A stretch of DNA of 34,301 bases. Source: Gemmatimonadota bacterium (lineage in GTDB: Bacteria > Gemmatimonadota > Gemmatimonadetes > Longimicrobiales > Gaopeijiaceae). Below, piece by piece: positions 4,109 to 31,638 of this stretch. The stretch covers positions 1-34,301 of the forward strand of contig JAURER010000027.1 of NCBI GenBank assembly GCA_030827315.1, written 5' to 3'. The translations under genes were made by a program, and so were the position numbers. Under the pieces are notes generated by a model. It searched no databases. It had not been told where the DNA came from and saw nothing but the letters and a program-made list of their open reading frames with translations. The stretch's first letter is position 1, and every line of letters begins with the position of its first letter.

Positions 4109-4840
4109 TTAGTTGGGACGCAGGGACATCACGTAGTCCGCCATCTCCTCCAGCTGCTCGGGCGTGTACAGCGCACCCCAGGGAGCCATGAGGGCGGAGC
4201 CCCCGACGACGGCGGCGCCGTCGCGGATGACCGTGACGATCCGGGCGCGATCGCGACCCTCCCAGAAGGCCGGATCGGTGAAATTCGCGGGCTTCGGGTC
4301 GAGGGCCATGCCCGCCGGGCCGTCACCCTGACCCCCGGCGCCATGGCACGTGGCGCACACCGTTCCAAACGATCCGGCGGCACTGAAGCCGGCCGGGGCC
4401 GCCTCGGCCACCTCCGCCGCTCCGCCCTCTTCGGCGTGATCGCCGTCTCCGTGGTCGTCACCGCCCAGCCCGCGGGCGGTGGCCTCCTTCGCCGCGAGGT
4501 TCTCCCAGTTGTTCCCCTCGTGATTGAGCACGTCGGGCGAGATACCTGCGACCATGAGGACCATGAGGAGCACCGACGTCGTCAGCAGCCACTTCATGAG
4601 CCTCTTCTCCCACTTGAGGTGCATGAAGTTGTCGATCACGAGGTTCGCCTTCACCAGCGCAATGCCGAACGCGGTGATCAGCGTGATCCAGGGCAGACCC
4701 GTGATACGCCCCACCTCCGGACCCGCGACGCTGATCAGGAAGAGGACGACCAGCGCGACGTAGATCGCGAAATAGTTGACGTGATGGCCGCCGCCGTGGC
4801 CGTCGTCGTGATGCTCGTTGTGCTCGTTGTTCCCGGACAT
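4109..4840 (-). CDS. Cytochrome oxidase subunit IV fused to a C-terminal cytochrome c domain
   Basis: This 243-residue protein has a histidine- and aspartate-rich N-terminus and three membrane helices at about 22-40, 50-69 and 85-100, matching prokaryotic subunit IV. An acidic His/Asp linker (about 125-145) follows, then a class I cytochrome c domain with CATCH at 162-166 and a likely Met ligand at 218 in ALMAP. The haem domain would face the periplasm and could pass electrons to CuA of subunit II. The frame is open to 4954, but I chose ATG 4840 because the extra part overlaps the upstream subunit III gene and is low-complexity. In most caa3 oxidases the added cytochrome c is on subunit II, so its placement on subunit IV is unusual. 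Confidence 0.9.
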   Translation of the reverse strand: MSGNNEHNEHHDDGHGGGHHVNYFAIYVALVVLFLISVAGPEVGRITGLPWITLITAFGIALVKANLVIDNFMHLKWEKRLMKWLLTTSVLLMVLMVAGISPDVLNHEGNNWENLAAKEATARGLGGDDHGDGDHAEEGGAAEVAEAAPAGFSAAGSFGTVCATCHGAGGQGDGPAGMALDPKPANFTDPAFWEGRDRARIVTVIRDGAAVVGGSALMAPWGALYTPEQLEEMADYVMSLRPN

Positions 4841-4844
4841 GGCC

Positions 4845-5423
4845 TTACTTCGCGATGTAGAGAAGCGGGAAGAGGAAGATCCAGACCACGTCGACGAAGT
4901 GCCAGTAGATGCCGATGAGCTCGACGCGGTGTAGCTCCCGTCCCCGATACGCATCGACCGCCACCACCCCCATGATGATCGCGCCCGCGATCACGTGCAG
5001 GGCGTGGAGGCCGGCCGCGGTGTAGTAGAACGACCAGAAGGTGTTCGCCGTGATCGTGTAGCCGTGCGAGATCTCATTGGCCCACTCGAACGACTTGATC
5101 ACGAGGAAGGTCAGGGCCCCCAAGATCGTGAAGCCGAGAAGCTTCGCGGCCTCCTTCCCGTTGCCCTTTTCGGCGGCCTGGTGCGCGAGCACCGCGGTGA
5201 AGCTCGAGGTGAGCAGCACGAAGGTGTTGATGGCCCCGATCCACGTCTGGGTGTGAGACGCAGCCTCGGCCCATTCGGGGTGGCCGAGCCTGTGCATGAT
5301 GTACGTGCCGAGCAGGCCGCCGAAGATCACGACCTCCGAGGCGAGGACCCACCAGACCGCCAGGCGGCCCGTAGGGATTCCCGTTGCGCTCCGGAGCGTA
5401 GCGAGGGGTTTTGCGTTTGCCAT
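4845..5423 (-). CDS. ctaE: Cytochrome c oxidase subunit III, first copy
   Basis: This 192-residue short-form subunit III has five membrane helices, with typical segments WWVLASEVVIFGGLLGTYIM, FEWANEI, YYTAAGLHALHVIAG and the closing YWHFVDVVWIFLFPLLYI. The acidic residue in the FEWANEI segment matches the conserved glutamate helix of the family. Its ATG at 5423 overlaps the TGA of subunit I by one base, the position expected for the true structural partner of subunit I. It differs strongly from the second subunit III downstream, so the pair is not a recent duplication. Confidence 0.95.
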   Translation of the reverse strand: MANAKPLATLRSATGIPTGRLAVWWVLASEVVIFGGLLGTYIMHRLGHPEWAEAASHTQTWIGAINTFVLLTSSFTAVLAHQAAEKGNGKEAAKLLGFTILGALTFLVIKSFEWANEISHGYTITANTFWSFYYTAAGLHALHVIAGAIIMGVVAVDAYRGRELHRVELIGIYWHFVDVVWIFLFPLLYIAK

Positions 5424-7141
5424 CAGGCTGGTTCGTCTTGGGGCCAGTAGTCTTCTTCACGATCGGGGTGACCGTACTCGTACGGGCCCCGGTACACGAC
5501 CGGCATGCGGTCGAGCGGCCAGTTTCCATGCGGCGGCGGGGACTCGGTGGTCCACTCGAGCGTGTTCGCCTGCCACGGGTTCTTTCCGGCCTTCTCACCC
5601 CTGATCCAGCTCGTGATCATGTTGTAGAAGAACACCAACTGGAACGCGATCATGATCAGGAGCGAGATCGTGGCGATCTGCCGGAGCTGGAACATCTCGG
5701 GCGTCGCAAGCTCCGGGAAGTGCTGGAAGTTGTAGATGCGGCGGTGCTGACCACCCATCCCCAGCACGAAGAGCGGGATGAAGATGAAGTTGAAGGGGAT
5801 GATCGTGCCCCAGAAGTGAATCTTCCCGAGCGTGTCGTTCATCATCCGCCCGAACATCTTCGGGAACCAGTACGTGAACGCGCAGAACGACCCGATGATC
5901 GCGATCGGGAAGAACGTGTAGTGGAAGTGCGCGAGCACGAAGTACGTGTCGTGGAAGTAGATGTCCGCGCCGCTCGCACCGAGGAAGATCCCCGTCACGC
6001 CTCCGATCAGGAACTCGGCCATGAAGGCGAGTGCCCAGAGCATGGGCGTCGTGAGACGGATGGAGCCCCCGTACAGCGTCGCGATGATCACGAAACACAT
6101 CTCGGCGATCGGCACGGAGATGAGGAGCGTCGTGACCGTGAACACGTTCGCCATGCGCGGGTCGATACCCGCGATGAACTGGTGGTGCGCCCAGACGAAA
6201 AAGCTCAGCACGCCGGTCGCGACCGCCGTGTAGAGGACCATCTTGTAGCCGAAGATCTTCTTGCGCGCGAACGTCGCGATGACGTCGACCGTGATGCCGA
6301 TCGCCGGCAGCAGCACGACGTAGACCTCGGGGTGTCCGAAGAACCAGAAGAGGTGCTGCCAGAGGATCGGGTCACCTCCTCGGGCCGGGTCGTAGAAGCC
6401 GGTACCGAGCGTCTGGTCGAAGAGCAGCATCACCGCGCCCGCCACGAGCGGACCGACCGAAAGCATGAAGAGGATGCTCGCGATCACGATCATCCACGCC
6501 ACCAGCGGGATGTCGTAGGCCTTCATCCCGGGCGCCCGTGAGTTCATGAGCGTGGTGATGAAGTTGATACCGCCCAGAAGGAAGGCCACGAATTCGAGCG
6601 CCACGGCGATGAGCCAGAGCGAAGAGCCCAGGTTCGTCTGGTTGTACTCCGCGACCGCCGACAGCGGAGGGTACGACGTCCACGCGCCTCCGAAGCCACC
6701 CCCTTCCACGAAGAGCGACGCCATGAGGACGATCACGCTCAGGAAGAACACCTGGAAGGAGAGGCGGTTGATGCGCGGAAACACCATGTCGTCCGCGCCG
6801 ATCATGAGCGGAATCAGGTAGTTCCCGAAGGCGGCGATCAGCACGGGCATCGCCACCCAGAAGATCATGATCGAACCGTGGTTCGTGATCAGCGCGTTGT
6901 ACTCACCCGGCGAAACCTGGCCGAAGCCCGGTACGGAAATGCCCGGGAAGGCGAGCTGCATGCGGAACACGTACGCCATGTATCCACCGATGATCGCCAT
7001 GAGCATCCCGGTGAACAGGTACTGCATGGCGATGATCTTGTGGTCCGTCGACCAGATGTACTTCAGGATGCCCGTCGGACCATGGTGATGGTCGTCGTGG
7101 CCGTGGTGGTCGTGGTGGACGTCGACTGCGGTGTCTGCCAT
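5423..7141 (-). CDS. ctaD: Cytochrome c oxidase subunit I with non-canonical K-channel
   Basis: This is the 572-residue catalytic subunit of an A-type haem-copper oxidase, which reduces O2 and pumps protons. Haem a ligands are His88 and His407, the haem a3 ligand is His405, and CuB ligands are His270, His319 and His320, with the cross-linked Tyr274 in HPEVY. The D-channel set is present: Asn107, Asp118, Asn125 and Glu272. The K-channel set is not. An ungapped alignment to the canonical VPTGIKIFSW segment gives VPIAEMCFVI, so the essential lysine is Met348, with Glu347 beside it and Ile345 for the threonine. The K-channel serine is Val285. The N-terminus is very His-rich (about residues 9-20). 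It lies 12 bases after subunit II. Confidence 0.98.
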   Translation of the reverse strand: MADTAVDVHHDHHGHDDHHHGPTGILKYIWSTDHKIIAMQYLFTGMLMAIIGGYMAYVFRMQLAFPGISVPGFGQVSPGEYNALITNHGSIMIFWVAMPVLIAAFGNYLIPLMIGADDMVFPRINRLSFQVFFLSVIVLMASLFVEGGGFGGAWTSYPPLSAVAEYNQTNLGSSLWLIAVALEFVAFLLGGINFITTLMNSRAPGMKAYDIPLVAWMIVIASILFMLSVGPLVAGAVMLLFDQTLGTGFYDPARGGDPILWQHLFWFFGHPEVYVVLLPAIGITVDVIATFARKKIFGYKMVLYTAVATGVLSFFVWAHHQFIAGIDPRMANVFTVTTLLISVPIAEMCFVIIATLYGGSIRLTTPMLWALAFMAEFLIGGVTGIFLGASGADIYFHDTYFVLAHFHYTFFPIAIIGSFCAFTYWFPKMFGRMMNDTLGKIHFWGTIIPFNFIFIPLFVLGMGGQHRRIYNFQHFPELATPEMFQLRQIATISLLIMIAFQLVFFYNMITSWIRGEKAGKNPWQANTLEWTTESPPPHGNWPLDRMPVVYRGPYEYGHPDREEDYWPQDEPA

Positions 7142-12984: not shown

Positions 12985-15750
12985 TTACAACCCGAGCCAG
13001 TAGTTCACTTTGATGATGAACCGATTCTCGGCCGGTGCGTCGAAGAGCGCGCCCAGGTCCCGGTCGAGGTCGAAGTCACCTGTGCGCGCACGGGCGATCT
13101 GGTTACGCTGCCAGACGAAGAAGATCGTGGATCCCGGACGGTACTCCCATCGCACGACGGCATTGCCGACGAGCGAGCGGACGTTGAAGTCCCGGTCGGA
13201 GAAGGAGTAGTCGGCTCGACCGTCCCCACTGAAGTCGACGTACTGCACGCCGTCGAGCTCGCAGATCGACCCACCGGCGCAGTAGACCCCGTCGGCCTGC
13301 GCGTCGGCCACGCCCGGTGCGAAGCGCGTGAAGTCGAAGCTCTTCGACTCCGCCAGCTGCTTGTACTGGACGTAATCACCCGACGACAGCAGCGGCTGGG
13401 CGAAGAGCTGCAGCGAGAGCGTCGGGGTGAACGTCCAGTCGAGCCTCGTCACCATCGAAATCGACGTGCGCTCGAGGTCGGAGAAGAGGTACCGGCGCCC
13501 GTACGTCGGCCCGTACGACAGAGTCGACGTGGCCGTGACGTACTGGTCACTCGACGTGGTCGCCTCCCAGCTCGGTGCCACCGAAAGGGAAACGCCGTCG
13601 GACGGGCGCAGGTTGAGGTCGGTCTTGATTTCCCGACGGGCCCCGCCGCCGATGAGGTCTCGGGTCTGATCGAAGTTCACCGAGACATGGACGGCACGCC
13701 TGCGATCGCTACCGAGGTTGGCGTTCCAGCTGATCGATCCGGGGCTCACCATCATCGGACCGCCGCGCGTGGCGTTGCGGCTCATCTGCTGCGGGCTGTA
13801 GCGCACGCTGGTCCGGAGGTTCCACCAGTTCAGGAACTCCCCGTTCACGTTCACGGAGTAGTTCCCGTTCGTCCGGGCGTCGTGCCACGATCCCACGACC
13901 CAGGGGTCGTCGAGCGCCTCGTGGCTCCAGTTGTGGAAGCTGCTGAGGCTGACGTCGTAGTTCCGGAAGAGTGTCCCGGGCTGGATCTCCTTGTACCCGA
14001 TGCGGAACCCGCCATCGATGCGCTCGGCGTTGGTGGAGAAGCCGAGGTCGTTGACCTCGAACACCTTCGAGACCTCGGCCGCCCACACGGAACCGGTCCA
14101 GTGCCGCCCGTTCCTTTTCTCGAACTGGAGGCGCCAGTCCCGACCGGTCAGGGATCGAGCATCCGGGTCGACGGAAAAGCGCGTGGCGTCCGGTCGCTGA
14201 AGGAGGTGCGTCGACGCGTTCTGCACGCGAACCATGGCCTCCTGCGACCCCCGCACGTGACTCCCCGCGAAGAAGCCCCACAGTCCCCAATTGCGGTCGC
14301 TCCACTGGTGCTCGAAGCGGACGCCGCCGTTGAACGCAGTCGACGTGAGCCAGTCGAACGAGCCGTCGCCGGGAAGGTCGCGGTTCATCCACGAAGCGAG
14401 GGCCTTGATCTGCGTGGTCCCCTCGTCCAGGTCCTGCCCCACGCTCACGACACCGTACGTGGTGCGCGGCTCCACCAGGAACTCGCCCTGGCTGCCGTCC
14501 GAAAACGCACCCTGAGCGTATTCGTTCCCGGTAACGGCCGACAGTACGCCCAGGGACAGACCCTTCGACGTGCGGCCCGCGATCTTCGCGGCGCCGAGGA
14601 TCGTGGCGTTGTCGGGGCTGTCGACGAAGTCGGGCCCACCCGGCACGCTGCCCTGCGGCGGGCGGCCGATGCGGCGGCTGTAGAAGAGCGAGTTCCTCCC
14701 GCCGGACAACCCGTAGTCGAATACGCGTGCATCCTCGACGAAAAAGGGACGCTGTTCGGGGAAGAATACCTCGAAGGCCGTGAGGTTGATCACCGCCGGG
14801 TCGGCCTCGACCTGACCGAAGTCCGGGTTGACCGTCGCGTCGAGGGTGAACGCCGCGCCGAGGCCGTAGCGCAGATCTACGCCCAGGCGGTTGTTCGAGC
14901 TGCTGCCGTCGAAGAAGGGGTCCCCGGGCTCGGCGGGTCCGTTCCGGAGGCTGGTCACGGCGTAGGGGCGCGCCTCGATGCGGCGAGCCGGACGGGCCAC
15001 GAGCACACCCTCGATCCGCCCCATCTGGCTCACCATGCCCTGTCGCGTGCGCGAGACGAGCGCGTAGTAGCTCCGCTCGTTCGACGAGACTCTCTGCCGG
15101 AAGAAGTTGATGCCCCAGGTCTGGGCCTCGTCCGACGCCTCGTACCGGATCTGCGACAGCGGGATCCGCATCTCGACCGTCCACCCCTCGTCGTCCAGCG
15201 CCGTCGCGGAAGACCAGACCGCATCCCACGCGAAGTCCATCCGGGTGTCGTCGTAGAAGTACGAGTCGCTCTGGACGTTGGCCGCGCTCACCGCGAAGCG
15301 ATAGCCGGTGAGTCCGTCGAGGTTCGGATCCAGGTGGATGCTGAACTGATCGAAGGTCCCGTGGCTGTCACGGCGGGTCAGGCGACGGTCGATGCGCTCC
15401 GGCGTCGGATCCCACATTCTCGCGAAGACCCAGATCGCGTCTTCGCCGAAAAGCACCCGCACCTCCGTGTCCTGCTCGGCGGGGATGCCCTCCACGGGCT
15501 CCTGCTGCAGAAATCCCGCGAAGAGCCGCGCGTCTTCCCACTCGGCCTCGTCCATGTATCCGTCGATGGAGATGTCCTCGATGGGGCGCGAGGAATCGAG
15601 AAGAGGCGCCGGAAGTGCCGAGCGCTGCGAGGGGGACCGCGAGCCAGTCGTGGCCGTCGCGGGCTCTTCGTTCATGCCCGGACCCAGCTGCGCCCGGACG
15701 GGCGCGGCAGAGGCGCAGGCAACGACGAAGCAGAGGAGAAGTCGGGTCAC
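12985..15750 (-). CDS. DUF5916 outer-membrane protein with CBM9-like N-terminal domain
   Basis: This 921-residue protein has a signal peptide (about 1-20, ending PVRAQ), a CBM9-like sugar-binding type domain at about 60-225 (IDGYMDEAEWEDA, then WTVEMRIPLSQIRY), and a long beta-rich DUF5916 region. It ends in alternating aromatic strands and NYWLGL, as expected of an outer-membrane barrel. A PEQRPFFVEDA segment near residue 330 is typical of DUF5916. The biochemical role of this family is not known to me. The start is GTG 15750. It has no ribosome-binding site because an inverted repeat abuts the codon. The next Met (residue 26) would remove the signal peptide, so the GTG is favoured. Confidence 0.9.
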   Translation of the reverse strand: MTRLLLCFVVACASAAPVRAQLGPGMNEEPATATTGSRSPSQRSALPAPLLDSSRPIEDISIDGYMDEAEWEDARLFAGFLQQEPVEGIPAEQDTEVRVLFGEDAIWVFARMWDPTPERIDRRLTRRDSHGTFDQFSIHLDPNLDGLTGYRFAVSAANVQSDSYFYDDTRMDFAWDAVWSSATALDDEGWTVEMRIPLSQIRYEASDEAQTWGINFFRQRVSSNERSYYALVSRTRQGMVSQMGRIEGVLVARPARRIEARPYAVTSLRNGPAEPGDPFFDGSSSNNRLGVDLRYGLGAAFTLDATVNPDFGQVEADPAVINLTAFEVFFPEQRPFFVEDARVFDYGLSGGRNSLFYSRRIGRPPQGSVPGGPDFVDSPDNATILGAAKIAGRTSKGLSLGVLSAVTGNEYAQGAFSDGSQGEFLVEPRTTYGVVSVGQDLDEGTTQIKALASWMNRDLPGDGSFDWLTSTAFNGGVRFEHQWSDRNWGLWGFFAGSHVRGSQEAMVRVQNASTHLLQRPDATRFSVDPDARSLTGRDWRLQFEKRNGRHWTGSVWAAEVSKVFEVNDLGFSTNAERIDGGFRIGYKEIQPGTLFRNYDVSLSSFHNWSHEALDDPWVVGSWHDARTNGNYSVNVNGEFLNWWNLRTSVRYSPQQMSRNATRGGPMMVSPGSISWNANLGSDRRRAVHVSVNFDQTRDLIGGGARREIKTDLNLRPSDGVSLSVAPSWEATTSSDQYVTATSTLSYGPTYGRRYLFSDLERTSISMVTRLDWTFTPTLSLQLFAQPLLSSGDYVQYKQLAESKSFDFTRFAPGVADAQADGVYCAGGSICELDGVQYVDFSGDGRADYSFSDRDFNVRSLVGNAVVRWEYRPGSTIFFVWQRNQIARARTGDFDLDRDLGALFDAPAENRFIIKVNYWLGL

Positions 15751-15820: not shown

Positions 15821-18706
15821 CTACCGCTGCAGGAGCCAGCGCTCCGCGGCGGGGTGCAGCGGGATCGGAGGTCTGGCCATGCGGGTCAGATCGATCTGCC
15901 TGGCCATGTCGTGCACCTGCTCAAGGGAGACACGATCGTCCGCGAAGATGTTGAGAAGCGTCACCACCACGTCGTCGTCGAGCGACTCCATGGAGAAGAC
16001 CCAGTTCATGACAGCCAGCGTGGGGATGGCCTCCTCCACGCCCGGGTACGCTCCCGCCGGGATCTCGTCCGCAGAGTAGTAGGGGTGCTGCTCGAGCATC
16101 GCGTCGAGGACGGCAATGTCGACCGGCAGCAGCCGCATGTCCGCGGTGGTGGACGCTTCCAGAACCGCCGCGGCCGGATAGCCCACGGAGATGATCGCCG
16201 CGTCGATCGCTCCGTCCCGGAGAGCGGAGGAGGACTCCGCGAAGGAGAGGTAACGCGGCTCGATGTCGTCATACGTCAGGCCGTACCCCTCGAGCAGGTG
16301 TCGGGCCAGCTGTTCGGTGCCGGAGCCTGCCGCCCCCACCGAGACGCGGAATCCCTCGAAGTCCGCTACGGTGCGAGCGCGGGACGACGCGGGGACCAGA
16401 ATGTGCGTCAGGTTCGCGTAGAGCGGAGCGATCGCCCGGAGTCCGGAGATGGAGCTCGTGAAGTCTCCGATGCCTCGCTGGGCCTCGTACGCCGTCGAGG
16501 CGATCGACATGGCCAGGTCCATCTGACCTGACGCGAGGCGGTTCACGTTCTCCACCGACCCTCCGCTGACCTCGGCCGTGTACTGGCGCACGGGATCGGC
16601 TATGGAGAGCCGGCTCGCGATGGCGCCGCCGAGCGGGTAGTAAATGCCGGCCGTCCCCGCGGTCCCCAGCGACATGAACTCCTCGACGCGACCCCCGCCC
16701 GCCGTGTTGGCGCCGGCGACCGGGGACGGCGGCGGGTACAGGGGTTCGCCCGACCGCGCCGGCCCCTGAGCGGGATTCAGGAAGAACGCTGCCGCAACGC
16801 CGGCGACCAGGAGACCGCCTGCCCACGGCGCCCACGGCGCCGGCTCGCTCTCTTCGGTGCGCAGGAATGCGAGCACGAAGGCGAGCAGACCCACGGCGTC
16901 GGAAGGCAGGCCGGGATACACGAGGAGGAACGAGGCGAGCAGGGCCAGGCCCCGCTCCCACGGGCGGAGCCGGGTGCGGCCGAATCCGACCCCCGCCGCC
17001 GCGAGCGCGATGACACCGATCGTCGCGCTGACGACCGCCACGACGATGCCGGCCGGGGAGCCCACCATCAGGAGCTCCGGGCCGTACACGAACATGAACG
17101 GCACGACGAAGCCCGCGCCCGCGAGCGTCGCTGCATACATCGCCGTACGCATCGGTGGTGCCCCGGCGATTCCCGCTGCGGCGAACGCCGCGAGGGAAAC
17201 CGGAGGGGTCACGTTCGAGATGCACCCGAAATAGAAGATGAAGAGGTGCGCCGAGAGCAGTGGAACACCGAGCTGCACCAGGGCGGGCGCGCCGAGGGCC
17301 GCGAGCACCACGTAGGCTGCCGTCGTGGGCAGGCCCATCCCGAGCACGATCGAGCCCAGACCGGTCAGCAGCAGAGCGCCGAGCAGATTGCCCTGCGAGA
17401 GGGTGATGATCAGCTCCGACATCCGGAGCCCGATCCCGGTCAGCGACGCCACACCGACCACGATGCCCGCAGCCGCGCACGCGGCGGCCACCTGCACCGC
17501 ACCCTGGCCCGCACGCTCCACGATGTCCCGAATCGCGGCCGGTGATGGCCGCGTCGACGGGCGCACGGCCGCGAGCGCGAGCGCGGACGCGACGCCCCAG
17601 AACGCCGCACGCATCGGCGACCTGCCCATGCCCAGCAACGCCACGATGATCAGAAGGGGGAGGAGAAGGTGGAGGCGATCGACGACAGGCTCGGTGTCCT
17701 GCTCGTCGGCCGGCTCGATGCCCATGCGCCCGGCACGGAAGTGGATGGCGGCCAGAAGGGCAGCGTAGTAGAGCAGCGCAGGGATGATGGCCGCGAGCGC
17801 GACCTGCAGATACGGGATGTTCGTCCAGGTGGCGAGGATGAACGCACCGGCGCCCATGACGGGGGGCATGAGCTGACCTCCCGTGCTGGCCGCTGCCTCG
17901 ATGGCGGCGGCGAAAAACGGCTTGAAACCCGCCCGCTTCATGAGCGGAATCGTGAAAGTGCCCGTGGTCACGACGTTCGCCACCGCACTGCCGGACAGTG
18001 AGCCCATGAAGGCGCTCGCCACCGCCGCGGTCTTCGCCGGCCCGCCACGCGTGCGGCCGGCCACCCGGTTCGCGAGCGCGATCAGCAGGGCGCCCCCACC
18101 CGCCGTCTCCAGCACCGCACCGAAGAGAACGAAGAGATACACGAAGTCCGCCGACACCCCCAGCGGAATGCCCCAGATGCCCTCGGTCGACAGATAGAGG
18201 TGCTCGATCAGCCGTGTGACGTCGTACCCCCGGTGGGCGAGGAAGCCCGGGAGGTAGGGTCCCGTGAACGCATACAGGATCGCGAGACCGCACACCGCGA
18301 TGAGCCCCCAGCCCGTCGCGCGCCTCGCCATCTCGAGCACCAGCAGGATCGCGAGACCGCCCATGAGCAGGTCGACACCGGTGGGATTCCCCGAACGCGC
18401 GACGAGAGCCTGATTTTCCAGGGCTAGGTAGCCGCACACCACGATCGTGAGACCCGCGAGCACCCATCCGAGCGCGCCCCCGACCCGTTCGAGGATAGGG
18501 AGCCCGTCCGGGTTCTCGGGGGCCCGGAGCTTGCGCTGAACTCCGACACCGAGGAAGGCGAGTGTGGCCATGAGGGCGAGGTGCACCGGCCGCTGCACGA
18601 GCGCCGTGAAGGGCGCCACCCCGGCCGCGTACATGTGGAAGAGGCCCGCACCGACCGACGCTGCCGCGATGACCAGTCCCGCGGCCCTGCCCCGCCCGCC
18701 ACTCAT
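15821..18706 (-). CDS. Single-chain TRAP transporter: 4TM/12TM permease fused to TAXI substrate-binding protein
   Basis: This 961-residue protein (from ATG 18706; GTG 18727 would add 7) carries a complete tripartite uptake system. Residues 1 to about 650 match the TRAP 4TM/12TM fused permease, with GSLSGSAVANVVTTGTFTIPLMK, PPVMGAGAFI, GMGLPTTAAYVVLAALG and NVTPPVSLAAFAAAGIAG. A last hydrophobic segment (AGGLLVAGVAAAFFLNP) leads through a proline-rich linker into a TAXI-family binding domain from about residue 675, starting SLGTAGTAGIYYPLGGAIA, with later AAGSGTEQLARHLLEGYG. The binding domain would be tethered in the periplasm by the preceding helix. TAXI systems take up dicarboxylates or amino-acid-like acids. 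The substrate here is unknown. Confidence 0.95.
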   Translation of the reverse strand: MSGGRGRAAGLVIAAASVGAGLFHMYAAGVAPFTALVQRPVHLALMATLAFLGVGVQRKLRAPENPDGLPILERVGGALGWVLAGLTIVVCGYLALENQALVARSGNPTGVDLLMGGLAILLVLEMARRATGWGLIAVCGLAILYAFTGPYLPGFLAHRGYDVTRLIEHLYLSTEGIWGIPLGVSADFVYLFVLFGAVLETAGGGALLIALANRVAGRTRGGPAKTAAVASAFMGSLSGSAVANVVTTGTFTIPLMKRAGFKPFFAAAIEAAASTGGQLMPPVMGAGAFILATWTNIPYLQVALAAIIPALLYYAALLAAIHFRAGRMGIEPADEQDTEPVVDRLHLLLPLLIIVALLGMGRSPMRAAFWGVASALALAAVRPSTRPSPAAIRDIVERAGQGAVQVAAACAAAGIVVGVASLTGIGLRMSELIITLSQGNLLGALLLTGLGSIVLGMGLPTTAAYVVLAALGAPALVQLGVPLLSAHLFIFYFGCISNVTPPVSLAAFAAAGIAGAPPMRTAMYAATLAGAGFVVPFMFVYGPELLMVGSPAGIVVAVVSATIGVIALAAAGVGFGRTRLRPWERGLALLASFLLVYPGLPSDAVGLLAFVLAFLRTEESEPAPWAPWAGGLLVAGVAAAFFLNPAQGPARSGEPLYPPPSPVAGANTAGGGRVEEFMSLGTAGTAGIYYPLGGAIASRLSIADPVRQYTAEVSGGSVENVNRLASGQMDLAMSIASTAYEAQRGIGDFTSSISGLRAIAPLYANLTHILVPASSRARTVADFEGFRVSVGAAGSGTEQLARHLLEGYGLTYDDIEPRYLSFAESSSALRDGAIDAAIISVGYPAAAVLEASTTADMRLLPVDIAVLDAMLEQHPYYSADEIPAGAYPGVEEAIPTLAVMNWVFSMESLDDDVVVTLLNIFADDRVSLEQVHDMARQIDLTRMARPPIPLHPAAERWLLQR

Positions 18707-18761
18707 GCGCGCCCCATGGTTTCGCACATGGACTCGCCGCGCCGGCGCGCGCGGGGAGGCA

Positions 18762-23844: not shown

Positions 23845-24948
23845 TCAGCCGAAGGTCGCCTTCCGAGTGGTGAGCGCTTCGATACGGTCGACGTCGACCT
23901 CCACGCCGATGCCGGGGCCCGTCGGCACCTGCATCTCACCGTTCGCCACCTCGAATTCCGGGGAGACGATGTCCTGCTCCCAGTAGCGACGGCTCGCGGA
24001 GATGTCGCCGGGCAGCGTGAAGCCCGGCAGCGACGCCAGGGCCACGTTGTGCGCACGGCCGACGCCCGACTCCAGCATCCCTCCGCACCATACGGCCAGC
24101 CCCGCGGCTCGCATCATGTCATGAATCGCGCGACTTGAAGCGAAGCCTCCGACCCGCCCCGGCTTGATGTTGATGATCCGGCAGCTGCCCAGGTGCAGCG
24201 CCAGTGCGGTGTCGCCGACGGTCTTGATGGACTCGTCGAGGCATACCGGCGTCTCGATCATCTCCTGCAGACGCGCGTGTTCGAGAAAGTCGTCGTAGCG
24301 AAGAGGCTGCTCGATCATCATGAGGTCGAGCGCATCGAGCTCTCTCAGTCGATCCGCGTCGCCCAGGGTGTAGGCGGAGTTGGCATCGGCCATGAACAGC
24401 GTGTCGGGAAACGCTTCGCGCAGCCCTGCCAGCATCTCCACGTCACGCCCCGGCTTGATCTTGATCTTCACCCGGGCGTATCCGTCGGCGATGAAGCCCG
24501 CGACCTGCTCGTGGAGCGCCTGGTCGCTCGGCTTGATGCCCACGCTCACGCCCACCGGCACCGCGCCCCGAGTGCCCCCGAGTTTCCGGGACAGCGACAC
24601 TCCGTCGGCCCGCGCGGCCATGTCCCAAGTGGCCATCTCGACCGCCGCCTTGGCCATGCCGTGCCCACGCACCCAGGGTATCGACGAGAAGACCTCCTCG
24701 GGACCGGCGATGTCCCGACCCACGACGCGCGGCAGGAGGAAATCGGACAGGATGTGCCACGCGGTCTCCGTCGTCTCGTACGAATACGACGGGTCGTCAC
24801 CGGCAACGCACTCGCTCCACCCTTCGAGCCCCTCGCCTTCGAGAGTCAGGAGGACGATCCGTCGGTCCTGGCTCCCCCCGCTGGAGATTTCGAAGTACTC
24901 CTTCAGCCGAAGGGGAATCTCCCGAAGTGTCGCTCGCTCGATCTTCAT
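23845..24948 (-). CDS. N-succinylamino acid racemase / o-succinylbenzoate synthase family enzyme
   Basis: This 367-residue enolase-superfamily enzyme has the full catalytic set: Lys161/Lys163 in KIKIKPG, metal ligands Asp188, Glu213 and Asp238, and Lys262 in IKPGRVGG. These positions match those of characterised N-succinylamino acid racemases almost residue for residue. The family does o-succinylbenzoate synthesis (menaquinone path), N-acylamino acid racemisation, or both. No other men gene is nearby, while an acyltransferase and an M20 deacylase are in the same operon. That is the set described for the Geobacillus D- to L-amino acid route, so racemisation is favoured. It is last in the nine-gene operon, 73 bases after the GNAT gene. 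Confidence 0.93.
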   Translation of the reverse strand: MKIERATLREIPLRLKEYFEISSGGSQDRRIVLLTLEGEGLEGWSECVAGDDPSYSYETTETAWHILSDFLLPRVVGRDIAGPEEVFSSIPWVRGHGMAKAAVEMATWDMAARADGVSLSRKLGGTRGAVPVGVSVGIKPSDQALHEQVAGFIADGYARVKIKIKPGRDVEMLAGLREAFPDTLFMADANSAYTLGDADRLRELDALDLMMIEQPLRYDDFLEHARLQEMIETPVCLDESIKTVGDTALALHLGSCRIINIKPGRVGGFASSRAIHDMMRAAGLAVWCGGMLESGVGRAHNVALASLPGFTLPGDISASRRYWEQDIVSPEFEVANGEMQVPTGPGIGVEVDVDRIEALTTRKATFG

Positions 24949-25021
24949 CTTGTCGCCTGTCGATGCGTGCCCCGTCGGAGCACGCGGTTGTCGTCTGAAG
25001 GAAACCCCTGCCGCCGTCCCG

Positions 25022-25888
25022 TCACTCCCCGCGGACGAGCACGTATCTCGACACCGTCGTTCCGCGGTCGAACTCCCGCACCTCGTAACCTCGCGCCATG
25101 TAGTGCGCGAGAGCAGCCCGCGTGGCGACGCGCCACGCGACGGCCAGCCCGGTGTCGTCCGCCATGAGGCGCACCACGTCGGAGGGAATCACGACGCTCA
25201 CGGCGTCGTCCGCGAGCCCGAGGTCGGGATCACCGGGGCGCGGGTGCTGGCCCGCACCGTCGGTGTCCGTACCCGCGGGAGCGAGCGCCGGCGAGGCACC
25301 GCGCAGAGCCCGGGCCGCCCTCACGCCGAGCGCCCCGCCGAAGGGTGCGTCCGGACCGTCGCCCAGGCGCTCCACGACCCGCGCGGACCCCATCAGCCAG
25401 AGCGCCACAAAGCGGTCCGTCCCGATGCCTCGATGCAGGGGCGAGTCCGTGTCCCCGTACATGTCGGGGACGTATTCCCGGACCACCGCTCCCAGCTTCG
25501 TGATGTTCAGATGGGCGTTACGCGACTGGAGCGGGTCGAAGGTCCAGAACATCCTGTCGATGCCGAGCCCAAGCATCTTTTCCCTCTGGTAAGCCTTGAG
25601 CCTGCGGCCGAGTCCCGCGTCGCGCGTGCCGGCTCGCACGGCCAGCATGTCCGCCCAGTGCACGACTTCCCCTCCCCGCAGCCCCGTCATGCCGAACACG
25701 AAGCCGACCAGCTTCCCTTCCGCATCGTAGGCGCCGGCCGCGACGCCTCCGAGAATCTGCGCGACCTTCTGAATGGCCGGGGACACCGACTCCGAGAAGC
25801 CGGCGCCCCAGGTTTCCTCTTGGAGGGCCACACAGCCACGGTACTCCTCGACGGTCTCGAAGTCGCGAATCGTGAACGCGTCGCTCAT
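25022..25888 (-). CDS. GNAT acyltransferase (COG3375 type), likely amino-acid N-acyltransferase
   Basis: This 288-residue protein has a GNAT fold with an acyl-CoA-binding loop R-x-x-G-x-G at about residues 89-94 (RDAGLGRRL), preceded by a strand ADMLAVRAG. The FWTFDPLQSRNAHLNITKLGA segment is typical of the COG3375 group found beside N-succinylamino acid racemase genes. There it is thought to succinylate D-amino acids. An insertion rich in Ala/Gly/Pro/Asp (about 190-230) separates it from the C-terminal part. ATG 25888 is chosen over an upstream extension that would overlap the P-loop gene. Donor (succinyl- or acetyl-CoA) and acceptor are not known. Confidence 0.88.
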   Translation of the reverse strand: MSDAFTIRDFETVEEYRGCVALQEETWGAGFSESVSPAIQKVAQILGGVAAGAYDAEGKLVGFVFGMTGLRGGEVVHWADMLAVRAGTRDAGLGRRLKAYQREKMLGLGIDRMFWTFDPLQSRNAHLNITKLGAVVREYVPDMYGDTDSPLHRGIGTDRFVALWLMGSARVVERLGDGPDAPFGGALGVRAARALRGASPALAPAGTDTDGAGQHPRPGDPDLGLADDAVSVVIPSDVVRLMADDTGLAVAWRVATRAALAHYMARGYEVREFDRGTTVSRYVLVRGE

Positions 25889-25925
25889 CGGGGCGACTTC
25901 CCTCCGGACAGGTCGAGGCCCGTGA

Positions 25926-26948
25926 TCACGGGGCGCCGCGCGAGCCGACCGCTGCGTGGAGCCGCTGCCGCAGACTGGAGTACGTGTTCTCGTCCAGCAG
26001 GTCCAGCGCGGGGAGGGCCGTGAGCTCGTGTACGAGGGCAACCCCCGCGCGGGTGTTCGCGGTCGGACCGGTGACGAGATCGAACGATCGTCGCCAGGCC
26101 GTCTGGATGCCGACCACGGCGTAGGGATCCGAAGCCGAGAGCACCGTAAAGGCCACGGTGTCACCCAGGAGCTCGACCAGGGCGCCACCGTTGTAAGGCT
26201 CGAGTGGAGAGGCCCCCGCTTCGATGACGGCGACGGTCGCGCCGGTCTTCCCCATGCGCCGCAGCAGTCCGGCCGTCGCGACCCGGTACTCGTCCTCCGG
26301 CACTACCGTGGTCGGAAGGCCTGCGTCCACGAAGTCGAAGAGGAAGTCGGCGCCCGCGTCGCCGAAGCTCGCTGTGTCGCGCCAGCGCCCGGCACCGGTC
26401 AGCTTCGCGGCGACGACGCGGTGTCCGAGCGCCTTCAGCTGCCGTACGACGACACGGCCCGCGAACGTCTTACCGGCCGACATCGACGTGCCCACTACGA
26501 GCACCACCGGGAGCCGGAACGGATCATCCGGTGCGGGGAGCACGAAGTCACGCATGACGAGCTTCTCGGACTGGCGTACGAGGTGCCCCCGGTACGCCAG
26601 CGGGATGAGCGACGGGGAGAAGCGAGACTTCGAGGTCACCGCCCCGAAACACCCACCCCCGGTGAGCAGCGACATGCGGCCGTCGTCGCCCACGTCCTCG
26701 AACGAGCCGACCGCCTCGAGCGTCGCGAAGCGGCGCGCGAGGGCGCCGACCAGGAGGTCGCCGGCCATGGGACTGCACTCCCGGCCCGTGGCGAGCTCGA
26801 ACGGCTCCCCGATCCCTTCGCGGGGGAGCACCTCGGCGACCACATAGTCTCCTGCAGCCCACTCCCCGTGGGGAAGCGCCGAATACGCAAACGGCCACGG
26901 GGGCAGATCCGCGATCCGCGTGACCGAGCCGAACATCACCCGGCTCAT
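25926..26948 (-). CDS. P-loop protein, BioD/DUF1611-like, of the racemase operon
   Basis: This 340-residue protein has an N-terminal domain of unknown type (1 to about 145) and a P-loop domain with Walker A GTSMSAGKT at 153-161 and a Walker B-like VAVIEAG at 239-245. The layout (VVGTSMSAGKT, then VVAAKLTGAG, then VIEAGASPLEPYNGG) resembles dethiobiotin synthetase/MobB and the C-terminal half of DUF1611 proteins. A DUF1611 protein (DgcN) is reported to N-acetylate D-glutamate in another racemase pathway, so a related acyl or phosphoryl transfer role is possible here. That link is inference, because the N-terminal half does not look like DUF1611. Its ATG overlaps the M20 gene stop (ATGA). Confidence 0.7.
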   Translation of the reverse strand: MSRVMFGSVTRIADLPPWPFAYSALPHGEWAAGDYVVAEVLPREGIGEPFELATGRECSPMAGDLLVGALARRFATLEAVGSFEDVGDDGRMSLLTGGGCFGAVTSKSRFSPSLIPLAYRGHLVRQSEKLVMRDFVLPAPDDPFRLPVVLVVGTSMSAGKTFAGRVVVRQLKALGHRVVAAKLTGAGRWRDTASFGDAGADFLFDFVDAGLPTTVVPEDEYRVATAGLLRRMGKTGATVAVIEAGASPLEPYNGGALVELLGDTVAFTVLSASDPYAVVGIQTAWRRSFDLVTGPTANTRAGVALVHELTALPALDLLDENTYSSLRQRLHAAVGSRGAP

Positions 26949-28141
26949 GGCCCGTCCCCCGCTCGACTCCCGGCGCCGCGCGGTGGCGTGAGGAGAAGTC
27001 GGGCGAGCAGCGCGCAGCGGTCGAGCGACGGCTCGATCACGATGTGCTCGTGGTCCGCATGCGCGCCATCACCCACACAGCCCAGCCCGTCCAGCGTGGC
27101 CGTGAAGAGACTGGTCGTGTTGCCGTCCGAGCCTCCACCGGCCATAGCTTCCTCGAGTTCGAACCCCATCTCGGCACCCGCCCGCATCGCGGCCTCCCAG
27201 AGCACACGATTGCGGGGGGTTCGCTCCAGCGGGGCCACGCGCACCCCGCCCTCGATCGAAAGAGTCACCCCGGGCGTGACGGGCCGGATCGCGTGGACGG
27301 CCTCTTCGACCCGAGCGCCGTCGTCCATGGTCGCGACCCTGACGTCGACGCTGGCCGTCGCCTGGGCGGCGATCACGTTGCGGCGCGTGCCTCCGTCGAT
27401 CGTCCCGACGTTGACGGTGGTGCCCCGCTCCGGATCGTTGAGCGCATTGAGCCGCTGGATCACGTGGGCCAGTTCGACGATCGCGCTGGCGCCGGCCTCG
27501 GGATCCAGCCCTGCGTGCGCCGCCCTGCCGGTCACGACGATGTCGAACGACCCGAGTCCCTTGCGGGCGGTTTTGAGCTTTCCGCTGAGGCCGAGGGCCG
27601 GTTCGAGAACGAAGGCCCGCTCCGCCTGTCGAGCCAGCCGGCACACGTGCGGCCTGGAATCCGGACTGCCGACTTCTTCATCCGAGTTGATGAACAGCAC
27701 CGGCGCAACCTCCGGCTCGTATTCCAGCTCCCGCAGCACGCGCAGCGCGAATACCATCTGCGCGAGGCCTCCCTTCATGTCGAGGGTGCCCGGCCCATGA
27801 AGCCGCCCCGCCGTCTCGTGCACCGGCATCCTGTCGAGGGTCTCGACGGGCCACACCGTATCGGTGTGCCCCACGAGCAACTGTGTCGGGCCACCCTTCC
27901 TTCGGCGCCGCGGCACGGCGAGCAGGTGGTTGCCGCTCCTGCGTCCCCGGACGATCCGCACGCCGTAGCCGAGCTCTTCCAACGCGGGCCCCAGGATCGC
28001 ATGCACGCCGGTCTGCGTGTCGGGACGATCCGTCGGCGACTCGACGCTGCACAGGCTCCTGAGGAAATCGATAAACTGATCCCTCATCCCCAGCACGCGT
28101 TCGTGCGTCCTGCGAGCCTCCTCCGCCGATCGCCCGTTCAT
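26945..28141 (-). CDS. M20 metallopeptidase, glutamate carboxypeptidase-like N-acyl-amino acid deacylase
   Basis: This 398-residue M20 family hydrolase has the expected two-zinc set: His92 and Asp94 in GHTDTVWP, Asp121 in GTLDMKGG, catalytic Glu155 with ligand Glu156 in NSDEEVGS, Glu180, and a C-terminal His361 or His364 in HADHEH. The lid/dimerisation domain is the middle part (VVTGRAAHAGLDPEAG). The nearest type is carboxypeptidase G2, which cleaves C-terminal glutamate or N-acyl groups. In this operon it would remove the acyl group from the L-isomer made by the racemase. No signal peptide is seen, so it should be cytoplasmic. ATG 28141 has a GGGGG-rich site just upstream. GTG 28153 is an alternative. 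Confidence 0.92.
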   Translation of the reverse strand: MNGRSAEEARRTHERVLGMRDQFIDFLRSLCSVESPTDRPDTQTGVHAILGPALEELGYGVRIVRGRRSGNHLLAVPRRRRKGGPTQLLVGHTDTVWPVETLDRMPVHETAGRLHGPGTLDMKGGLAQMVFALRVLRELEYEPEVAPVLFINSDEEVGSPDSRPHVCRLARQAERAFVLEPALGLSGKLKTARKGLGSFDIVVTGRAAHAGLDPEAGASAIVELAHVIQRLNALNDPERGTTVNVGTIDGGTRRNVIAAQATASVDVRVATMDDGARVEEAVHAIRPVTPGVTLSIEGGVRVAPLERTPRNRVLWEAAMRAGAEMGFELEEAMAGGGSDGNTTSLFTATLDGLGCVGDGAHADHEHIVIEPSLDRCALLARLLLTPPRGAGSRAGDGP

Positions 28142-28157
28142 GTTCACCCCCACCGTC

Positions 28158-28763
28158 TCAGCGCGAAAACCCGGCGTGGAACGGAAACGCGAACGTCTCC
28201 GAGATCTCCGCGTATCGGCCGGGTGCGACGTAGGCGAGGAGGGGAGCCCTGAAGATCACCTGTTCGTCGTCCTTGTCCGCCCGACGGATCGCCTCCTCGG
28301 CCACCAGCGCCTCCACGATCCGCCCCGTGATCAGGCTGTTCTTCCCGAAGTCGTCGATGACACGGTCCGTCTCGCACTCGAAGTGCAGATACGCGTCGGC
28401 CAGCAGCACCCCGTCCACGCGTGTGGCCGGGCGCGTCTCCAGCAGGGCGAGCGACGGCTTCGAGTCGCCCTCGCACCGCGGAGCGGCTGCGAGGCTCGCC
28501 AGAAGCACCTGGCTCGGTCGCGGATAGCTCACGGTGAACGCCCCCTCCCTGCGGGCGTTCACGTACGTGCCGTGCGTCGGACAGCATACGAAGCCGAAAT
28601 GGTTTTCCCACCCCATCGCCATCGCCATGTGCTTGGGAGCGAGGTCGAAGGTGCCGTCGATCTCCCTCGTGCCGACAATCACCAGCGGAAAGACCTGGAA
28701 GAATCGGTCCCAGACGGGAAAGTCCGCGCCCAGGCTGATGAGATTCGATTGTGCTTCACTCAC
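28158..28763 (-). CDS. Flavin reductase-like domain protein
   Basis: This 201-residue protein matches the flavin reductase-like (DIM6/NTAB) family. It has an N-terminal strand region (PLVIVGTREIDGTFDLAPKH), a GFVCCPTHGTYVNARREGAFTVSYP segment where related enzymes bind FMN, and a C-terminal VIFRAPLLAYVAPGRYAEI. Relatives reduce FMN for partner monooxygenases or are FMN-binding proteins of unknown role. No flavin-dependent monooxygenase gene is present in this window. GTG 28763 overlaps the glcF stop (GTGA). A 42-residue upstream extension is rejected because it runs through the end of glcF. Confidence 0.85.
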   Translation of the reverse strand: MSEAQSNLISLGADFPVWDRFFQVFPLVIVGTREIDGTFDLAPKHMAMAMGWENHFGFVCCPTHGTYVNARREGAFTVSYPRPSQVLLASLAAAPRCEGDSKPSLALLETRPATRVDGVLLADAYLHFECETDRVIDDFGKNSLITGRIVEALVAEEAIRRADKDDEQVIFRAPLLAYVAPGRYAEISETFAFPFHAGFSR

Positions 28764-30106
28764 GCGTAGTACCCCGCTCTCTGGTAGCTCTCGTCCAGAA
28801 GCTCGATCGGATGCACGACGGACTCCGGCGCGCCCTCGAGGCGCAGTCCCGCGCCGATCTGCATCATACAACCCGGGTTGGGGGTGCACGCCACGTCGGC
28901 GCCGACGCTGCGAACCGCTCTGACCTTGTCACCGCCGATCCGGCCACCCAGATCCGGGTGCGTCATCCCGTAGATGCCCGCTCCACCGCAGCACTCGTCG
29001 GCACCCGGCACGATCCTGACTTCCACGCCGTCAACCGCACCGAGCACCGCCAGAGGCTTGCGCGCGATACCCTGCGCGTGCTGGAGATGGCACGGATGGT
29101 CGTACGCCACGCTGCACGGCACCGGCGCACCGCGGCGCGGGCCCGCGTCCACGAGCAGCTCCGACACGTCCCGCACCCGCTCCGCGAACGCGGCCGCCCG
29201 ACCGGCGAAGTCCGGGTCGCCCTCGAAGAGCGTCGCGTACTCCTTCATGGCCGCGCCGCAACCCGCGGCGTTGACGGCGACATGGTCGACTCCGACGCGC
29301 TCGAAGGCCTCTACGTTGCGCCTCGCCAGGCGACGTGCCCCCGCCAGATCACCGGCGTGCGCGTGCAGTGCTCCGCAGCAGTCCTGGCCTCGGACCGCCG
29401 TCACCGCATACCCGTTCGCTCTCAGCGTCCGCTCGGTCGCCCCGTTGATGCGGCCGAAGAGACCGTCCTGCACGCATCCTTCGAGCACCGCCACGGAGCC
29501 CGCGCCCGCTCCCCGCGCAGGGGCATCAGCCGAGGTCACGTCCGGGCGCGCTGCGCGGAGGCCGCTCATCCCGTCCCCGGTGGCAGCGAGCATCGCGAGA
29601 CCCAGCCTCGCGTTGGCCAGGACGGCCCACTTCGGTAGCGCCCGCGCCCCGAGCCCGGCGAGGCCCACGGACCGGAGGAGCCGACCGACCGCGAAGAACG
29701 CCCCCCGCAGACGGGACGAGCCCATCACGGCGAGCAACGTCCGCGTGAGGAAGCCGGGTGCGCGCGCCCACGCGGCGGTCTCGCGAGCGAGCTCGAGCAG
29801 CGTCCCGTACTCCACACCCGAGGGGCACACGGGCTCGCAGGCGCGACAGCCGAGGCAGCGGTCGATGTGCGTCTGGAATGCGTCGGAACCGGCATCGAGG
29901 CGGCCCTCCACCACGGCCTTCATGAGGTGGAGGCGACCACGCGGAGAATCGTTCTCGTCCCCGAGTCGGTTGTAGGTCGGACAGGCCGGCAGACAGAAGC
30001 CGCAGTGCACGCACGGCAGCAGACGCTCTCGCTGGGCATCGAGCGCGATCGCGAGCCCGCCCTGTGCGGAGCGGGTCGCGGGGCCGGGACCAGAAGTGAC
30101 GCTCAT
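28760..30106 (-). CDS. glcF: Glycolate oxidase iron-sulfur subunit GlcF-like
   Basis: This 448-residue protein has two N-terminal 4Fe-4S motifs, Cys32/35/38/42 (CVHCGFCLPACP) and Cys84/87/90/94 (CLGCRACEPVCP). It also has two cysteine-rich CCG domains (GQDCCGALHAHAG and DECCGGAGIYGM). This is the GlcF layout, which passes electrons from the FAD subunits GlcD/GlcE toward quinone. ATG 30106 overlaps the aldehyde dehydrogenase stop (ATGA). GlcDEF complexes oxidise glycolate, D-lactate or related 2-hydroxyacids. The insertion of an aldehyde dehydrogenase between glcE and glcF is unusual and ties that enzyme to the pathway. Confidence 0.95.
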   Translation of the reverse strand: MSVTSGPGPATRSAQGGLAIALDAQRERLLPCVHCGFCLPACPTYNRLGDENDSPRGRLHLMKAVVEGRLDAGSDAFQTHIDRCLGCRACEPVCPSGVEYGTLLELARETAAWARAPGFLTRTLLAVMGSSRLRGAFFAVGRLLRSVGLAGLGARALPKWAVLANARLGLAMLAATGDGMSGLRAARPDVTSADAPARGAGAGSVAVLEGCVQDGLFGRINGATERTLRANGYAVTAVRGQDCCGALHAHAGDLAGARRLARRNVEAFERVGVDHVAVNAAGCGAAMKEYATLFEGDPDFAGRAAAFAERVRDVSELLVDAGPRRGAPVPCSVAYDHPCHLQHAQGIARKPLAVLGAVDGVEVRIVPGADECCGGAGIYGMTHPDLGGRIGGDKVRAVRSVGADVACTPNPGCMMQIGAGLRLEGAPESVVHPIELLDESYQRAGYYA

Positions 30107-31638
30107 CGTCCCAGGATCCTCCTGGCAGCGGACATCAGGCCAGCGGCGCCACCCCGGCCGCGAAGGGCGAGTACGGCGCGCGTGAGACGTTCGCCTGCCC
30201 GGTCGTAGGGGAACCACCACGGCTCTCGACCGAGCGCCCCCACGTCGACGAACAGCGAGCGCACCGTCGTCATCTCGTCGAGGCCCTCGAGGCCGCGCCG
30301 CCGCCCGAAGCCGCTGTCGCCGATGCCGCCGAGCGGGAGGCCGGCGATGCTGTAGTGGCTCAGGCAGTCGTTGACGGACACCACCCCCACGCGCAACCGA
30401 CCTCCCACGCGCATGCCGCGCGCCCGGTCACGGGTCCAGACACTGGCGCACAGGCCGTAGGACGAATCATTCGCCCTGGCGACCGCCTCGTCCTCGGACT
30501 CCACCGGAATGACCGGCACCACGGGGCCGAAGGTCTCCTCGCGCATGACACGCATCGAATCGTCCACACCGACGAGCACCGTCGGCTGGATCACCCGCGA
30601 CCCGGCGGTGGGGAGTCCACCGGTGAGAGCGCGCGCGCCCCTGGCCAGTGCCTCTTCGATCTGCTCGACGACCTTCACGTACTGGGCCTCGGTGATGATC
30701 GGGCCGACGTCGCGTTCCTCCTGGACACCCGCCCTGAGCGTGCGCGTGACGTCGACGAGTTTCTCGAGGAAGGCATCGGCCACCGCCCGGAGGACGTACA
30801 CGCGCTCGACGGAGATGCACGTCTGGCCCGCGTTGAAGAACGACCCGAAGGCGACACCCCTCGCCGCCCGATCGAGATCCGCATCCTCGAGAATGATGGC
30901 GGCATCGTTTCCACCAAGCTCCAGAATGACCGGCGTGAGCGACTCCGCGGCGGCGCTCATGACCAGGCGGCCGACGGCCGTCGATCCGGTGAAGGAAACC
31001 TTGTCGACGCCTGCACGCACGAGTGCCGCTCCCGTCGAACCGTCGCCAGTCACGACCCGGACCAGGTCGTCGGGCAGGCCCGCCTCCCGACACAGGGCGG
31101 GAATCATCAGCGCGGTGAAGGGGGTGAACTCCGAAGGCTTGAGCACCACCGCGTTCCCGCCGAAGAGGCCGGAGACGACGGCATCCATGCTCAGGATCAG
31201 AGGGTAGTTCCACGGCGTGATGGCGCCAATGACCCCGAGCGGTTCACGCTGCGCAAACGCCCGTTTCCAGACCATCCATCCGGTCCCGACACGGCGGCGC
31301 CGAAAGTGACGAGGCGCCACCCGTGCGTAATGGCGAATCAGGTCGACGCCCACCACCACGGAGGCCAGCGCCTCGAGCCTCGGCTTCCCGGTCTCCGCGA
31401 TCAGGCACGCCGCGAGGTCGTCCGCCCTTCGCTCCATGACCCGGGCCAGCTCCAGCATCCGGACCGACCGCTGGCGGGGACTCAGGCCGCCCCACGCGGG
31501 TTGCACCCGACGGGCCGCCGCGACCGCCGCCCGCACCTCGGCCTCGTCGGCCACCGGCACACTCCCGAGGGTTCTGCCCGTGGCGGGAGCCCGGACTTCG
31601 AACGTGGGCGCTTCGCGCACTACGACCGGGCCGGCCAC
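30103..31638 (-). CDS. NAD(P)-dependent aldehyde dehydrogenase
   Basis: This 511-residue enzyme has all standard residues: Asn144 in ITPWNYP, Lys167 in VVLKPSE, Glu240 in LELGGND and the nucleophile Cys274 in NAGQTCISVERV. It oxidises an aldehyde to an acid. The C-terminal part is about 40 residues longer than usual and ends in a basic stretch. GTG 31638 is supported by AGGAGGT four bases upstream, within the end of glcE (19-base overlap). Glycolaldehyde or another short aldehyde feeding a 2-hydroxyacid to GlcDEF would fit the operon, but the substrate cannot be read from the sequence. Confidence 0.95.
   Translation of the reverse strand: MAGPVVVREAPTFEVRAPATGRTLGSVPVADEAEVRAAVAAARRVQPAWGGLSPRQRSVRMLELARVMERRADDLAACLIAETGKPRLEALASVVVGVDLIRHYARVAPRHFRRRRVGTGWMVWKRAFAQREPLGVIGAITPWNYPLILSMDAVVSGLFGGNAVVLKPSEFTPFTALMIPALCREAGLPDDLVRVVTGDGSTGAALVRAGVDKVSFTGSTAVGRLVMSAAAESLTPVILELGGNDAAIILEDADLDRAARGVAFGSFFNAGQTCISVERVYVLRAVADAFLEKLVDVTRTLRAGVQEERDVGPIITEAQYVKVVEQIEEALARGARALTGGLPTAGSRVIQPTVLVGVDDSMRVMREETFGPVVPVIPVESEDEAVARANDSSYGLCASVWTRDRARGMRVGGRLRVGVVSVNDCLSHYSIAGLPLGGIGDSGFGRRRGLEGLDEMTTVRSLFVDVGALGREPWWFPYDRAGERLTRAVLALRGRGGAAGLMSAARRILGR

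Follow-up and report, generated by a model that had tools for sequence, protein, structure and literature searches.

The locus analysed here raises the question of whether the permease and the receptor of a TAXI-TRAP transporter can reside in one polypeptide; in accounts of TRAP systems the binding protein is mobile and distinct from the permease, and in TAXI systems it is at times lipid-anchored. The window, i.e. the whole 34,301-nucleotide stretch of Gemmatimonadota DNA that was analysed, carries on its minus strand an open reading frame (ORF; 18727..15821, stop included) which is uninterrupted and encodes 968 amino acids from a GTG start. An alternative Met start (ATG at 18706, minus strand) gives 961 codons, and the first-pass annotation, which had described a single frame of this shorter length, was right in its coordinates. 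The best reading of this ORF, to which we assign a probability of roughly 0.85, is a complete, one-chain, self-tethered TAXI-TRAP symporter, a reading of which we infer the topology, the uncleaved state, the transport, the substrate and the ion.

Domain organization of the open reading frame

The N-terminal part (residues 18-625; 16853..18676, minus strand) is a fused Q+M (4TM + 12TM) permease, as judged from matches to NCBIfam TRAP_fused TIGR02123 (~641 bits, E 2.8e-192, residues 18-625) and Pfam DctM (278 bits) and from a fold which resembles the solved TRAP QM structures 9pym, 8y4w and 8thi. The C-terminal part (residues 683-968; 15824..16681, minus strand) is a TAXI substrate-binding domain which matches NCBIfam TRAP_TAXI TIGR02122 (265 bits, E 7.1e-79, residues 677-965) and Pfam NMT1_3. 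Its best Foldseek matches are 1us4, 8u79 and 8s4j, and TAXI proteins of Thermus and Vibrio are its nearest solved relatives. Both NCBIfam scores exceed the curated cut-offs (320.65 bits for TIGR02123 and 84.35 bits for TIGR02122). Across the contigs of the draft genome, the only TAXI domain and the only TIGR02123 permease above cut-off are those located in this ORF. The lack of a separate binding protein does not bar membership of the TAXI-TRAP family (TC 2.A.56) because both parts are clearly homologous to it, and on sequence grounds the protein clearly classifies as a variant of TAXI-TRAP without a separate receptor.

The structure prediction of the full chain proposed in the first-pass annotation was obtained with AlphaFold2 (mean pLDDT 86, pTM 0.86), using an alignment of 54 sequences in all, in which the binding domain is covered thinly by 14 rows. 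The model comprises the permease, a helix, a disordered linker and the binding domain. The permease ends in a three-helix C-terminal extension (residues ~558-621; 16865..17056, minus strand) with helices at 558-580, 589-603 and 607-621 and a weak DUF3394 match at 562-607. This is followed by a hydrophobic helix (residues 633-650; 16778..16831, minus strand) of the pattern W-x-x-W...FFxLxPP, a predicted transmembrane anchor whose in-to-out direction fits the positive-inside rule, and by a Pro/Gly-rich linker (residues ~653-682; 16682..16771, minus strand) disordered at 657-679 (pLDDT <50), after which the binding domain is folded from 683 in the same frame. The order of permease, anchor, Pro-rich linker and TAXI domain described earlier is thus recovered by both the NCBIfam domains and the model, and the notion of a tethered receptor agrees with them. 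The earlier description was right on these parts, but it left the minus strand unstated and missed the three-helix extension that separates the 12TM part from the anchor.

A single fusion event within the genus

The in-frame fusion is present in 11 of the 14 species of the genus, the window's included, and the objection that relatives might always encode the two parts as separate genes therefore fails. The fusion is complete and uninterrupted in G001, G002, G003, G007, G008, G011, G012 and G013 as well as in the window species, and the eight other full-length ORFs are 75-77% identical to the window protein; in G009 and G010 the junction is in frame, with contigs broken within the gene. The permease and the TAXI protein are encoded by two adjacent genes in G004, G005 and G006. 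Trees of the QM part, the P part and the two concatenated all place the 11 fused proteins in a single clade (concatenated support 99/94), which is nested within separate-gene lineages and leaves G004, G005 and G006 outside. One fused clade inside separate-gene lineages argues for one derived fusion, retained since. The gene order MR/MLE enzyme - Yip1 - TRAP - DUF5916 - amidase is identical in fused and separate species.

An assembly or sequencing artefact, in which an overlooked stop or frameshift merges two genes, might be suspected in a draft genome of 99 contigs whose near relatives have two adjoining genes. However, the fusion is common to 11 species of one clade and has a conserved novel junction, and the signal peptide, start and ribosome site of the second gene are missing rather than bypassed. 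The fused MAGs originate from separate metagenome projects (under the labels Gemmatimonadota, Gemmatimonadales or Longimicrobiales), and the stop or frameshift that the first-pass annotation had named as a refutation occurs at the junction in none of the independent assemblies. We regard the likelihood of such an artefact as negligible. Nor is the long frame an accident of high GC, because eight further species carry the whole fusion uninterrupted. Judged from these comparisons of sequences, the fusion is real, selected and of single origin.

Loss of signals and gain of a predicted anchor at the junction

The permease of the separate-gene sisters (G004, G005 and G006) terminates a few residues past its last helix, with KAE or RAE before the stop, and their TAXI protein begins with a lipoprotein signal containing a Cys lipobox (e.g. 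LVACGSEG); in G005 an SD sequence and an ATG lie downstream of the permease stop. In the fused clade the stop, SD, start and Cys lipobox are all absent at the junction, and in place of these lost signals a hydrophobic WTxWAG...AGVVAGFFxLxPP helix is conserved in 11 of 11 fused species. The junction measures 79-89 residues among the fused species, with length differences of whole codons only, and dN/dS among near relatives is ~0.06-0.19 for the anchor, ~0.26-0.47 for the linker and ~0.02-0.06 for the binding domain. The low dN/dS and the whole-codon length changes indicate that the junction is translated and selected, and that the selection acting on it is purifying. As to whether the anchor descends from the former signal peptide of the lipoprotein, DNA alignments gave no pair with p <0.05 versus shuffles, and the likeness between the two, e.g. 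ERWVACLSVAVLVAC versus TRWVGGALSAGVVAS, is suggestive only.

Two alternatives to a single intact product bear on this junction. The binding domain might be initiated separately at an internal start and be made in addition to the full chain, and a chance ATG with an SD-like sequence is found at residue 685 of the window protein; yet internal start and SD are not conserved across the fused clade, and a product initiated there, without a signal peptide, would remain cytoplasmic. We consider two such products very improbable. Alternatively, a polyprotein may be cut in the linker by signal peptidase I or another protease, to give an ordinary permease together with a binding protein that is either free or anchored. 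Small-residue A/S/G-x-A/G/S motifs do occur in some linkers, and three fusions outside the genus (G022, G111 and G039) keep a lipobox at the junction, so that signal peptidase II might cut those. The window's clade, however, is without a lipobox and without a cleavage motif conserved in position, G008, G009 and G013 have almost no such motifs near the helix, and the conservation of the helix exceeds the needs of a signal peptide, which leaves processing of this kind unlikely.

Predicted topology and mode of transport

TAXI permeases carry a three-helix C-terminal extension with a periplasmic final loop (PMC11574862), and this would place residue ~625 in the cytoplasm, with which the arginines at 584-592 and 623 are in keeping. 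With residue ~625 in the cytoplasm, one further helix is required to place the binding domain in the periplasm, and an extra helix after the extension is present in the fused clade and absent in the separate-gene sisters. Homology and charge together suggest that the anchor helix runs from the inside to the outside and that the binding domain is periplasmic.

In the one-chain symporter the permease, composed of Q+M and the TAXI-type three-helix extension, would begin and finish in the cytoplasm, while the extra fourth helix would cross into the periplasm, bearing the TAXI domain on a flexible linker of ~30 residues. The TAXI domain would catch the periplasmic substrate and then close, and the closed domain would dock on its own permease, or on that of its partner in a dimer. 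The substrate would be handed to the elevator-type transport domain, after which the TAXI domain would swing off to reload, uptake being powered by an ion gradient (H+ or Na+). The extension and the anchor may tie the receptor to the moving domain. Throughout this cycle the tether would keep the TAXI domain at a high local concentration; we estimate that a receptor tethered within ~5 nm has a millimolar effective concentration, to be compared with the micromolar affinity reported for SiaP-SiaQM (PMC10942642). A published proposal holds that the lipid anchor of TAXI proteins boosts the local receptor concentration (PMC11574862), and a covalent fusion would go one step beyond this. The fusion arose once, in an ancestor in which the gene directly downstream of the permease specified the TAXI protein as a lipoprotein, and a protein anchor would have taken over from the lipid anchor. 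The evolutionary route thereby outlined leads from a lipoprotein to a covalent tether, together with the extra helix demanded by topology.

It is fairly likely that this chain represents a 'unipartite' TRAP, obligately uncleaved and with one dedicated receptor per permease rather than an exchanging periplasmic pool. The fixed 1:1 stoichiometry would hold only if the chain stays uncleaved, as it presumably does. If true, it would be a TRAP system without a described precedent, in which the complex of receptor and permease is captured naturally. The existence of a natural one-chain form suggests that free exchange and an excess of receptor are dispensable. A one-chain version could also help to show how permease and receptor dock, as a ready-made construct for imaging the docked receptor on the permease, which is difficult with partners of micromolar affinity.

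Comparison with known transporters

VcGluPQM of Vibrio cholerae and TAXIPm-PQM of Proteus mirabilis have a homologous fused QM permease with a three-helix C-terminal extension and the same TAXI fold (1us4, 8s4j), but in them the TAXI protein is made on its own, as a soluble protein or a lipoprotein, whereas in the present chain the TAXI domain follows the permease at the C-terminus, after an additional TM helix and a linker. The DctP-type QM fusion HiSiaQM likewise combines Q and M in one chain with an elevator fold, and differs in that its binding protein SiaP is separate, soluble and of micromolar affinity for QM (PMC10942642). In TAXI-GltS of Lachnospiraceae (PMC12344293) a TAXI domain is also covalently attached to an elevator-type secondary transporter, but there the TAXI domain comes first, the GltS permease is unrelated and the hosts are Gram-positive, while the present protein has a TRAP QM permease and a C-terminal TAXI domain. 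The layout of a membrane domain, a hydrophobic anchor helix, a short linker and the binding domain last is shared with OpuA, an ABC importer of Lactococcus lactis, in which the binding domain is covalently attached by an 11-residue linker and a hydrophobic anchoring sequence (PMC11065425). OpuA is ATP-driven and its proteins are unrelated, and the likeness is one of convergence; the one-chain TRAP would be its secondary-transporter counterpart, the same layout having been reached by two unrelated transporter classes. Binding domains are also found fused in ABC importers and to GltS, and the fusion is therefore not categorically new. In the papers found, TAXI systems are described as consisting of a fused membrane protein and a separate SBP, an all-in-one TRAP transporter was not found in the open-access literature searched, and to our knowledge, as far as can be searched, a chain with all three parts is new to TRAP.

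Occurrence outside the genus

A TAXI domain above cut-off is present in 96 of the 395 Gemmatimonadota genomes sampled, and outside the genus the phylum yielded only three single-frame permease-TAXI ORFs, all with an internal lipobox (L020:598-3441 in G022, L072:758-3598 in G111 and L099:708-2309 in G039). No QM-TAXI fusion was found among the TAXI matches listed for the samples of Halobacteria, Bacillota, Alphaproteobacteria and Acidobacteriota, and the arrangement is thus as unusual as first supposed. No relative was found in the viral contigs that were scanned, and plasmid records yielded separate or unannotated genes only (<60% identity). The three lipobox-keeping fusions are distant from the window's clade and probably independent in origin; signal peptidase II could free their TAXI part as a lipoprotein, a 'self-cutting' fusion, and they are a possible evolutionary intermediate. 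Other long TAXI frames of the phylum (G065, G069, G077, G086, G109, G189, G191, G285, G288 and G034) are not fusions, as permease and TAXI are in different frames, and the same applies to the longest frames in Alphaproteobacteria and Acidobacteriota. Single ORFs of 684-897 amino acids that lack a permease and match the TAXI domain twice, the second time in part, occur in Gemmatimonadota (G261, G363) and Acidobacteriota (G440), at L093:1041-3584, L094:1044-3734, L095:2890-4941 and L111:1881-4430.

Substrate and genomic surroundings

Among the residues that contact glutamate in VcGluP (taken from PMC11574862), the carboxylate-binding Tyr and Ser are kept (Y696 and S724), while the amine-binding Gln93 and Glu125 are replaced by Ile742 and Asn772, a pocket also found in the separate-gene sisters. 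The replacement of these amine-holding residues, in which the protein differs from the glutamate-specific TAXI proteins VcGluP and TtGluBP, makes a glutamate transporter unlikely. The substrate is probably an organic acid (carboxylate) without a free alpha-amine.

Three consecutive genes at 23845-28153 (minus strand) encode an MR/MLE enzyme of the menC/N-acylamino-acid racemase type (TIGR01928 above cut-off), a protein weakly matching DUF1611 and an M20 deacylase. The set looks like one for N-acyl D-to-L amino acid conversion, and an MR/MLE gene lies near the transporter in relatives too; being several kb off, the racemase-like enzyme and the deacylase are too far to decide the substrate. A CBM9-like and DUF5916 outer-membrane-type protein (12985-15750, minus strand) is encoded directly downstream of the transporter in both fused and separate species. 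Genes for a CCG/4Fe-4S protein, an aldehyde dehydrogenase, an FAD-binding protein and a GlcD-like protein at 28760-34282 (minus strand) resemble a glycolate-oxidase cluster with an aldehyde dehydrogenase inserted. Another ORF, at 4109-4954 (minus strand) and adjoining COX1 (5423-7141), matches both COX4_pro and cytochrome c, and may be either a subunit IV-cytochrome c fusion or a carrier protein.
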